DNA from: Alphaproteobacteria bacterium
Lineage (GTDB): Bacteria; Pseudomonadota; Alphaproteobacteria; Rs-D84
Assembly (NCBI GenBank): GCA_017502865.1
Contig: JAFVUD010000006.1
Span: forward strand, 81,699 to 145,698
DNA length: 64,000 bases
Direction: 5' to 3'
How positions within the stretch are numbered: the stretch's first letter is position 1; every line of letters starts with the position of its first letter. Below, in pieces: positions 38,044-41,790 of the stretch. The notes beneath the pieces were generated by a model. It searched no databases. It worked only from the letters and a program-made list of their open reading frames with translations, and was not told where the DNA came from. Both the position numbers and the translations under genes were made by a program.

Positions 38044-38117
38044 TGGTGCCCTAAGCAAGAATCGGACTTGCGACTCGTCCTTACCAAGGACGTGTTTTAC
38101 CACTAGACTATTAGGGC
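38044..38117 (-). tRNA. tRNA-Thr (anticodon GGT)
   Basis: 74-nt cloverleaf with CCA: acceptor GCCCTAA/TTAGGGC, D-arm with TAGTGGTAAAAC, anticodon loop TTGGTAA on a CGTCC/GGACG stem, T-arm CAAGTCCGATTCTTG. Confidence 0.93.
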
Positions 38118-39761: not shown

Positions 39762-39765
39762 AATG

Positions 39766-39790
39766 ACGGCGTTTCGGCGCCGTTCTTTAT
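39766..39790 (+). terminator. Terminator
   Basis: ACGGCG / CGCCGT stem followed by TCTTTATTTC; the T-run is interrupted. Confidence 0.7.
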
Positions 39791-39828
39791 TTCTTGCAAA
39801 ATGGGATTTTTTGGTTTAGCATACGGGT

Positions 39829-40020
39829 ACAGTTTTTTGGGGGCGGGGCGTTGAAGTGTCTGACAATCACAGAGTCCTTGAACCCGGTAATAAGTAATAA
39901 ATCAGGGTGGCACCGCGCAGCCGTAATATGACTTGCGCCCCTGTGAATTAAATAACAATGTGGGTGCCGAAAGTTTCCATAAAGATTTTTTCAGGTGCCC
40001 AAAATAAAAAAGGGACCAAA
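39829..40020 (+). promoter_or_regulatory. T-box riboswitch leader of aspS
   Basis: The T-box sequence AGGGTGGCACCGCG is exact at 39904-39917. It folds as the canonical antiterminator: CAGGG (39903-39907) with CCCTG (39939-39943), a 7-nt bulge TGGCACC, then GCGC (39915-39918) with GCGC (39935-39938). The bulge base N of TGGN is C, complementary to G73 of tRNA-Asp. Upstream, 39841-39886 can form a short Stem I-like hairpin (TTGAAG/CTTGAA, TCTG/CAGA) with GAC-A at 39862-39865 as a candidate specifier. Two GGTGCC copies (39963-39968, 39994-39999) can compete for GGCACC; the second is also complementary to the Shine-Dalgarno region. A weak promoter (TTGCAA-17-TAGCAT) precedes it. Confidence 0.85.
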
Positions 40021-41790
40021 ATGTTATCTTTGAAATCAAAGTACAGAACCCATACATGTGGTGAATTAAATACATCTAATGTTGGGGAAAAAGTTGTTTT
40101 GTCGGGTTGGGTGCATCGTAAACGTGACCATGGGGCATTGCTGTTCGTGGATTTGCGTGATAATTATGGTATTACCCAGATTGTGTTTGATGGGGGCGAT
40201 GCAGAATTGGAAAAAGTGCGTCCAGAATCTGTGATTAAAATTACAGGTAATGTTGTCGCACGTGATGCAAATGCAGTGAATGATAAAATCCCAACAGGTG
40301 GTATCGAAATTCAGGCAGAAAGTTTTGAAGTGTTGACCAGTGCAGAAGTTTTGCCATTCCAGGTATTCGGTGATGATGATTCTGTGGCAGAAGATTTGCG
40401 TTTGAAATATCGCTATATCGATTTGCGTCGTGAAAGTCTGCATAAAAATATTTTGTTCCGCAATCGTGTTATGAAATTTATTCGTGACAAAATGTGGGAT
40501 ATGGGTTTCTCGGAATTCCAGACACCAATTTTGACGGCGTCCAGTCCAGAAGGGGCACGTGACTTTATCGTGCCAAGTCGTAATCATCATGGTATGTTCT
40601 ATGCGTTGCCCCAGGCACCACAGCAGTTCAAACAGATGATTCAAATTTCTGGGTTTGACCGCTATTTCCAGATCGCACCATGTTTCCGTGATGAAGATTT
40701 GCGTGCAGACAGATTGCTGGAATTCTATCAGTTGGATTTGGAAATGTCGTTCGTTGATTTGCCAGATATTCAGGCGGTTGGTAATACGCTGATGCCGGCG
40801 ATGATTCGCGAATTTGTACCAGGTGCCCAGATTTGTGAAGATATTCCACATATTTCTTTTGATGAAGCAATGTTGAAATATGGTTCGGATAAACCAGATT
40901 TGCGTAATCCAATTATCATTCATGACGTGACAGAAATATTCCGTGGGTCTGATTTTGGTATCTTTGCAAATGCGGTTGAAAATGGCAGTGTTGTTCGTGC
41001 AATCCCTGCACCAAACACAGCAGATAAACCACGTTCTTGGTTCGATAAACTGGGTGAATATGCAGTGAAAGAATTGGGACTTGGTGGTTTGGGATATATC
41101 GTTTTCGCAGAAGAAGCCAAGGGGCCTGTTGCAAAGAAATTAGATGAAGCCCGTATTGCAAAATTGCGTGAAATCGCAGGGGATAATTCATCATTGTTCT
41201 TTGTTTGTGATGCGGAAAATACCGCCGCCAAGGCAGCAGGTAAACTGCGTAATAAATTGGGTGATGATTTAGGTTTAATCAATCCAAAAGAATTCCGGTT
41301 GTGCTGGATTGAAAACTTCCCATTCTTTGAAGAAGATGAAGAATCACCAACAGGTATTGCGTTTACGCATAATCCATTCTCGTTCCCGATGGCAACATTG
41401 GAAGAATTGAATACAAAAAATCCATTGGAAATCAAGGCTGCACAGTTCGATATGGTGTTGAATGGGGCCGAAATTTGCAGTGGTGGGCTGCGTAACTATA
41501 ACCCAGAAGTTATGTTGAAATGCTTTGATATTACCGGTTATTCCGAAGATGTGGTTAAGGAAAAGTTCGGTGGTATGTACACAGCATTCCAATATGGGGC
41601 ACCACCGCACGGTGGGTGTGCGTTCGGTTTGGACAGATTGGTGCAGATTATGTTAGATGAACCAAATCTGCGTCAGGTTGTTATTTTCCCAACAAACCAA
41701 CGTGGCCAGGATTTGATGATGGGCGCACCAACAACTGTTACAGAAAAACAGTTACGTGAAGCTCATATTCAGGTACGAAAGAAAAACTGA
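40021..41790 (+). CDS. aspS: Aspartyl-tRNA synthetase
   Basis: Class II synthetase that charges tRNA-Asp. The N-terminal OB-fold begins YRTHTCGELNTSNVGEKV with LSGWVHRKRDHG, the form found in alphaproteobacteria. Motif 2 is in FRDEDLRADRLLEFYQ, motif 3 in GCAFGLDRLVQIML, with the bacterial GAD insertion between. I chose the ATG at 40021, preceded by AAAAGGGACC, over an upstream in-frame codon inside the T-box leader. Length (589 aa) is normal. Expression is probably controlled by the preceding T-box. Confidence 0.97.
   Translation: MLSLKSKYRTHTCGELNTSNVGEKVVLSGWVHRKRDHGALLFVDLRDNYGITQIVFDGGDAELEKVRPESVIKITGNVVARDANAVNDKIPTGGIEIQAESFEVLTSAEVLPFQVFGDDDSVAEDLRLKYRYIDLRRESLHKNILFRNRVMKFIRDKMWDMGFSEFQTPILTASSPEGARDFIVPSRNHHGMFYALPQAPQQFKQMIQISGFDRYFQIAPCFRDEDLRADRLLEFYQLDLEMSFVDLPDIQAVGNTLMPAMIREFVPGAQICEDIPHISFDEAMLKYGSDKPDLRNPIIIHDVTEIFRGSDFGIFANAVENGSVVRAIPAPNTADKPRSWFDKLGEYAVKELGLGGLGYIVFAEEAKGPVAKKLDEARIAKLREIAGDNSSLFFVCDAENTAAKAAGKLRNKLGDDLGLINPKEFRLCWIENFPFFEEDEESPTGIAFTHNPFSFPMATLEELNTKNPLEIKAAQFDMVLNGAEICSGGLRNYNPEVMLKCFDITGYSEDVVKEKFGGMYTAFQYGAPPHGGCAFGLDRLVQIMLDEPNLRQVVIFPTNQRGQDLMMGAPTTVTEKQLREAHIQVRKKN

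Follow-up and report, generated by a model that had tools for sequence, protein, structure and literature searches.

A T-box core upstream of aspS

T-boxes are tRNA-sensing switches that are best known in Gram-positive bacteria, and this locus raises the question of whether one of them precedes the AspRS gene of an alphaproteobacterium. T-boxes have been viewed as mainly a device of Firmicutes and Actinobacteria, with the leuA elements of Geobacter and Pelobacter as the only proteobacterial cases in the surveys (PMC2494555, PMC3766115), and no relevant report of T-boxes in Alphaproteobacteria or Rs-D84 was found in the literature searched, most subscription papers lying outside that search. 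The window, the whole stretch of 64,000 nucleotides that was analyzed, belongs to an 889-kb draft genome (assembly 78% complete) of the genus holding Candidatus Enterousia, a gut bacterium that NCBI assigns to Alphaproteobacteria. Enterousia is a member of the order Rs-D84, and its genomes are mostly smaller than 1 Mb and without amino-acid biosynthesis pathways (PMC12306168). Judging from sequence comparison, we consider it probable, at about 0.7, that a minimal, translation-controlling T-box lies upstream of aspS in this genome.

The first-pass annotation had called a T-box here from an exact consensus folding into a canonical antiterminator with a 7-nt bulge, a TGGC that fits G73 of tRNA-Asp and an AspRS gene downstream, and each of these observations held (Table 1). 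With up to 2 mismatches allowed, the window contains no match to the motif other than the core AGGGTGGCACCGCG itself (39904-39917, 0 mismatches), and simple arithmetic gives a chance expectation of about 0.002 for an exact 13-base match in 64 kb on both strands. No second exact match occurs in the genome; four matches with one mismatch all lie within long open frames and were discarded for that reason. The Rfam T-box model RF00230, which expects a long Stem I and a Stem III, scores the leader at 25.3 bits (E 4e-4 genome-wide, the sole match in the genome at E <=10), far short of its curated cut-off of 93 bits. Of 148 relatives, 91 matched the model weakly, and almost all of these belong to the genus. 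An in-frame ATG at 39958, given by the ORF tool as the aspS start, was rejected, as the relatives indicate 40021. Transcription starting after 39943 is not supported: the gene before aspS has its terminator-like hairpin well upstream, with its last base at 39784, and conservation of the leader sets in near 39845, although the promoter-like match is weak; a similar TTGCAA...TATAAT-like spacing was seen by eye in some relatives.

Table 1. Features of the aspS leader, in window positions
Feature	Position	Strand	Basis
Terminator-like hairpin of upstream gene	39765..39784	+	Pattern scan: 8 pairs, then T-rich tail; 5' bound of leader
Weak promoter-like TTGCAA-N17-TAGCAT (putative)	39794..39822	+	Read from sequence, under scan threshold
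Stem I, kink-turn hairpin, 34 bases	39845..39878	+	Invariant GA/GA, compensatory changes
C-helix of Stem I	39845-39849/39874-39878	+	Compensatory changes
Kink turn of Stem I	bulge 39850-39852; tandem GA 39853-39854 and 39872-39873	+	GA/GA invariant, 83/83
Upper helix of Stem I	39856-39858/39868-39870	+	2/3 pairs with compensatory changes
Apical loop UCUGACAAU, holds specifier	39859..39867	+	Family consensus ACUGACAAC
Specifier GAC, complementary to tRNA-Asp anticodon GUC	39862..39864	+	83 leaders; tRNA-Asp(GUC) in genome
A-rich linker UAAGUAAUAAAU, where Stems II/III would be	39891..39902	+	Conserved columns, 83-row alignment
T-box antiterminator/antisequestrator	39903..39943	+	Exact motif; outer A1 pairs covary; RNAalifold
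Antiterminator bulge UGGCACC, 7 bases	39908-39914	+	Between A1 and A2
A1 helix	39903-39907/39939-39943	+	Outer pairs covary
A2 helix	39915-39918/39935-39938	+	Antiterminator
Element X, GGGUGCC	39962..39968	+	Complementary to T-box GGCACC and to Y
Element Y, GGUGCCC, anti-Shine-Dalgarno	39994..40000	+	Y/SD table, independent-pairs test
Shine-Dalgarno-like GGGACC	40012..40017	+	Position conserved a few bases 5' of aspS start in relatives
aspS, bacterial-type AspRS, 589 aa	40021..41790	+	NCBIfam PRK00476, 745 bits (cut-off 443)

Secondary structure and covariation

The AspRS genes of the relatives were located by tblastn and the leaders upstream of them were aligned. The core UGGCACCGCG stands 59-138 nt 5' of the aspS start in every aligned Enterousia leader and is invariant in the 83 leaders. 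With the alignment as its sole input, RNAalifold recovered the C-helix, the upper helix and A1/A2. Counted on this structure plus two added A2 pairs, compensatory sequence-pair cells numbered 279, compared to 75 in shuffles; 95.4% of cells were paired, two-sided changes occurred in 12 pairs, and the covariation score was 0.51, against 0.20 when shuffled and 0.13 at best when slid. Compensatory changes were found in all 6 C-helix pairs and in two of the three upper-helix pairs, the tandem GA/GA of the kink turn did not vary, and the consensus of the loop reads CU-GAC-A. Comparison of the leaders establishes the T-box core, the kink turn, the helices, the apical-loop specifier, the complementarity of X and Y described below and the placement before aspS.

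The Stem I proposed earlier at 39841-39886 proved indeed to be very short, and the element as a whole is even shorter than that proposal implied. From the kink-turn GA to the core there are only 30-36 nt, part of which is C-helix, and the A-rich linker of the family leaders leaves no room for anything similar to Stem II, IIA/B or Stem III. The apical loop is drawn here with 9 nt; stacking or pairing of its first and last bases would reduce it to 7 nt (CUGACAA), the size found in some sister genera. The linker AAGUNAUAAAU 5' of the antiterminator (39891-39902; A1 columns 61-79) is conserved without forming a helix and may substitute for the tRNA contacts of Stem III.

Folded alone, the window leader did not show the proposed structure, and its stability was no better than that of shuffles (z 0.39); the structural case is one of comparison across leaders.

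Stem II and IIA/B seem to have been lost in the family, because three aspS leaders (L033, L034, L255) and the leaders of a second AspRS described below retain a GAAGAAC...UUCCCGGG..GCCCGUUA-type sequence, which we read as probable Stem II and IIA/B. The specifier of L034 is AAC.

Relation to the known T-box classes

The published scheme recognizes four T-box classes (PMC10482949). Class III carries its specifier in an apical loop and needs Stem II, which together with a pseudoknot is required for tight tRNA binding, whereas class II has no Stem II, a long Stem I and specificity for glycine (PMC10482949). The search for translational T-boxes behind the TBDB was restricted to Actinobacteria and to class I matches with a truncated Stem I (PMC7778990). 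The window leader has the sequence features by which a T-box is recognized, namely an antiterminator with a 7-nt bulge, a UGGN facing the discriminator and CCA, and a kink-turned Stem I with a specifier that matches the gene. It has neither the long Stem I, internal specifier loop and Stem II of class I nor the long Stem I, distal double T-loop motif and glycine specificity of class II, as Stem I closes in a 9-nt loop with GAC, and the 30-36 nt before the core do not hold the Stem II with S-turn or the IIA/B pseudoknot of class III. The loss of these parts, on which tight tRNA binding depends in class III, speaks against a working T-box, as does the low Rfam score.

The closest likeness is to class III, represented by Nocardia farcinica ileS (PMC10482949), which shares a short, kink-turned Stem I without an elbow-binding tip, the apical-loop specifier and, in all likelihood, the translational output. 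Unlike that element, the leader has no Stem II, S-turn, IIA/B pseudoknot or Stem III; its loop is formally 9 nt rather than the penta- or hexanucleotide of class III (5-6); its specifier stands for Asp/Asn and not Ile, it occurs in Alphaproteobacteria and not Actinobacteria, and it has a proposed X-Y relay before the SD. A single-stranded linker replaces Stem II as in the class II element of Bacillus subtilis glyQS (PMC10482949), but in class II the Stem I is long and ends in a tip that binds the tRNA elbow, the specifier loop is internal, and the elements respond to glycine and act on transcription. The leuA T-boxes of Geobacter and Pelobacter likewise occur in bacteria then classed as Proteobacteria (PMC2494555), but these are typical elements, upstream of leuA and in a distant lineage. 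An apical specifier with no Stem II is thus a combination outside all four published classes. Sequence and covariation agree with the core definition of a T-box, but the leader falls short of the Rfam cut-off and of the class definitions, and we therefore describe it as a minimal T-box of a new type.

The specifier and its probable tRNA

Genes for tRNA-Asp and tRNA-Asn were found with Rfam plus ARAGORN. The tRNA-Asp of the genome has the anticodon GUC and the 3' end G73-CCA, and its tRNA-Asn has the anticodon GUU and likewise G73. The GAC of the loop and the C of UGGC match tRNA-Asp, in contrast to the tyrS leaders of relatives, which carry UGGU. The GAC that the first-pass annotation had offered as a possible specifier is present in 73 of the 83 Enterousia leaders, and the remaining 10, or roughly every eighth species, have AAC. 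When other genera are included in the AspRS tree, 13 changes between GAC and AAC are needed, at least 7 of them forced by well-supported branches, and the relation between an AAC specifier and the presence of a second AspRS is a mixed pattern.

The alternation between species recalls a two-codon T-box that controls the transamidation operon in Clostridium acetobutylicum (Saad et al. 2013, cited in PMC4052509), which also serves tRNA-dependent transamidation and makes the codons of two tRNAs relevant; there, however, tRNA-Asn and tRNA-Glu are addressed by overlapping codons in one RNA, whereas here Asp and Asn alternate between species. In the window genome, at 78% completeness, no AsnRS and no archaeal-type AspRS scored above cut-off, and both are likewise absent in most of the genus. 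Because GatB and tRNA-Asn are nevertheless present, the window AspRS should, on the basis of the established transamidation pathway, charge tRNA-Asn in addition to tRNA-Asp. Since about one species in eight has AAC, asparagine supply may be sensed as well, and with a single synthetase for two tRNAs the alternation of the specifier provides a natural experiment as to which of the two is important.

A proposed relay from the T-box to the Shine-Dalgarno sequence

Two GGTGCC copies (39963-39968 and 39994-39999) had earlier been taken to suggest control of translation, one of them being complementary to the Shine-Dalgarno (SD) sequence. Both copies are present and the comparative data favor translational control, but the picture is now refined to a relay in which X could pair with the T-box or with Y, and Y with the SD. 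In several sister genera the SD itself is GGTGCC, GGTGTC or GGTGCT (GGTGYY) and complementary to the GGCACC of the T-box bulge, at all 6 positions in 9 of 10 leaders and at five in the other. X is found as GGTGC[CT] in 78 of the 83 Enterousia leaders; five aligned species are without X or Y. In a test run without preselecting Y by its pairing to its own X, X paired better with its own leader than with those of other species (matched -12.1 vs mismatched -10.9 kcal/mol; 0 of 5000 shuffles). Types of Y co-vary with types of SD, GACACC occurring with GGTGT and GTCGCCC with GGCG. In 4.7 of 6 independent pairs Y and SD changed in the same direction, and in 0 in the opposite one (median p 0.06 on the tree); without Y preselection, 20 of 5000 shuffles were equally good. 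The co-change of Y and SD is partly supported, and we regard this support as modest. The Y-SD duplex of the window has a calculated energy of -9.6 kcal/mol.

We infer binding of tRNA, dependence on its charging and the direction of switching from this arrangement. Uncharged tRNA-Asp would be bound at two sites, its anticodon GUC pairing with GAC in the apical loop of the small, kink-turned Stem I and its free G73-CCA end pairing with the UGGC of the antiterminator bulge. With the T-box strand held by the tRNA, X (GGGUGCC) would pair with Y, leaving the SD open for synthesis of AspRS. The 3' end of charged tRNA-Asp would be kept out of the bulge, so that the T-box GGCACC could pair with X, and the freed Y would cover the SD and lower translation. 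In the sister genera the simplest switch would be that tRNA occupies the bulge and the SD becomes free. The insertion of X and Y in Enterousia would then be a relay between T-box and SD that keeps the sign of the switch; uncharged tRNA would still mean ON, because two added elements preserve the sign. The calculated energies do not reproduce an OFF default for this relay: by nearest-neighbor calculation, OFF lies above ON in 63 of 78 species, by a median of 4.6 kcal/mol. This result, the modest Y-SD support and the species without X and Y are its weak points.

It is rather unlikely that tRNA is sensed but that X, Y and the SD are not the switch, the route being instead the A1 3' strand (GCGCCCC) pairing with the SD or X, or some other. 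The A1 3' strand with X averages -10.7 kcal/mol, the T-box is kept in the species without X and Y, and calculated energies do not give a default-OFF switch. Against this, all but five of the 83 leaders keep X, which fits the Y of its own leader, and the direct GGTGYY SD of the sister genera points to GGCACC as its partner.

Improbable, too, is transcription attenuation, with the hairpin of T-box and X acting as a terminator that uncharged tRNA blocks. Among the alternative helices this one is the most stable (-13.9 kcal/mol on average), at least 5 U follow X within 9 nt in 8 of 77 leaders, and the tyrS T-boxes of other genera of the order end in a terminator-like hairpin and a U run. The other 69 leaders, however, including that of the window, have no U run after X, and no U run follows the X-Y hairpin in any species examined. 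The first-pass annotation had seen no clear terminator in the leader, and the region 39785-40060 is indeed without a terminator-like site; furthermore, the SD of the sister genera is complementary to the T-box. The output of the window T-box therefore looks translational on present sequence evidence.

A broader proposal is that a fifth T-box architecture specific to Rs-D84 exists, a sensor of about 100 nt in which an anticodon-loop-like CU-GAC-AA hairpin and a bulge suffice without Stem II/III, a four-strand relay leads to the ribosome-binding site, and, given a non-discriminating AspRS, uncharged tRNA-Asp and tRNA-Asn are both readable, in one species via a G-U pair of GAC with tRNA-Asn or via flips of the specifier base. 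We hold this only tentatively. If tRNA binds, the lower limit for tRNA sensing would become much smaller, the role of Stem II would become testable and a small tRNA-responsive translation switch would be on offer.

Conservation across Rs-D84

Of the 142 genomes available for the family, which belongs to the order Rs-D84, 129 are matched by a covariance model (R1) built from the 83 leaders. These matches cover 11 of 13 genera, and a count from the table gives 113 of 115 genomes within the genus. Matches in genera outside the training set scored 62-86 bits, except two near 24 bits. Across 385 genomes spread over the class, R1 found Enterousia only, plus two weak matches: one (L262) is an aspS leader from another family with a fuller T-box that includes Stem II-like sequence, and the other (L263 in G356, 24.8 bits) was taken as a chance match, having no T-box core before the open frame. 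An entire family of alphaproteobacteria with reduced genomes has thus retained the T-box, and searches with standard models miss this compact type.

This conservation makes it very improbable that the leader is the decaying remainder of a T-box that was gained by horizontal transfer and no longer functions. Relatives such as L033, L034 and L255 do have the Stem II, IIA/B and Stem III that are missing here, but the core, kink turn and specifier loop are invariant and compensatory changes run genus-wide and over most of the family. Contamination or a binning artefact, with a leader from a Gram-positive organism, can practically be dismissed: the genomes are all metagenome-assembled, but the same arrangement recurs in the independently assembled family genomes and the AspRS genes that follow the leaders form a single tree in which they vary jointly, which bears out the alphaproteobacterial host named at the outset.

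Other T-boxes and neighboring elements

About a dozen Enterousia (L038, L054, L060, L062, L096, L265-L267) have a further T-box 5' of an archaeal-type non-discriminating AspRS; its specifier is AAC, and it includes sequence like that of Stem II and IIA/B. This class II enzyme was considered as an AsnRS and rejected on its NCBIfam match, PRK05159. The SD region of this second T-box (GAACACAAAGG) could pair with the 3' strand of the antiterminator (CCUUGUGUUC), to which it is complementary. In other Rs-D84 genera (L032, L035, L037) the UGGU T-boxes precede an archaeal-type TyrRS and are followed by the hairpin with U run mentioned above; L032 comes close to the Rfam cut-off, at 90.4 of 93 bits. 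An Asn-type T-box lies 5' of a 2-isopropylmalate synthase-like open frame in L070:1-1000 (G009:C24), where the contig end cuts the frame; this arrangement is possibly a misassembly.

In many Enterousia (for example L049, L068, L084 and L094) a tRNA gene with the 3' end ...CTTAGGGCACCA directly abuts the aspS leader on its upstream side, which suggests that the two may share one transcript in many species of the genus; the tRNA-Thr of the window (38047-38117) has the same 3' end. Finally, three leaders (L105, L118, L086) carry an inserted hairpin TCCCACTTCGCCAAGGCTTCGTGGGACAAG, with small variations, between Y and the SD, with the appearance of a mobile or REP-like repeat.
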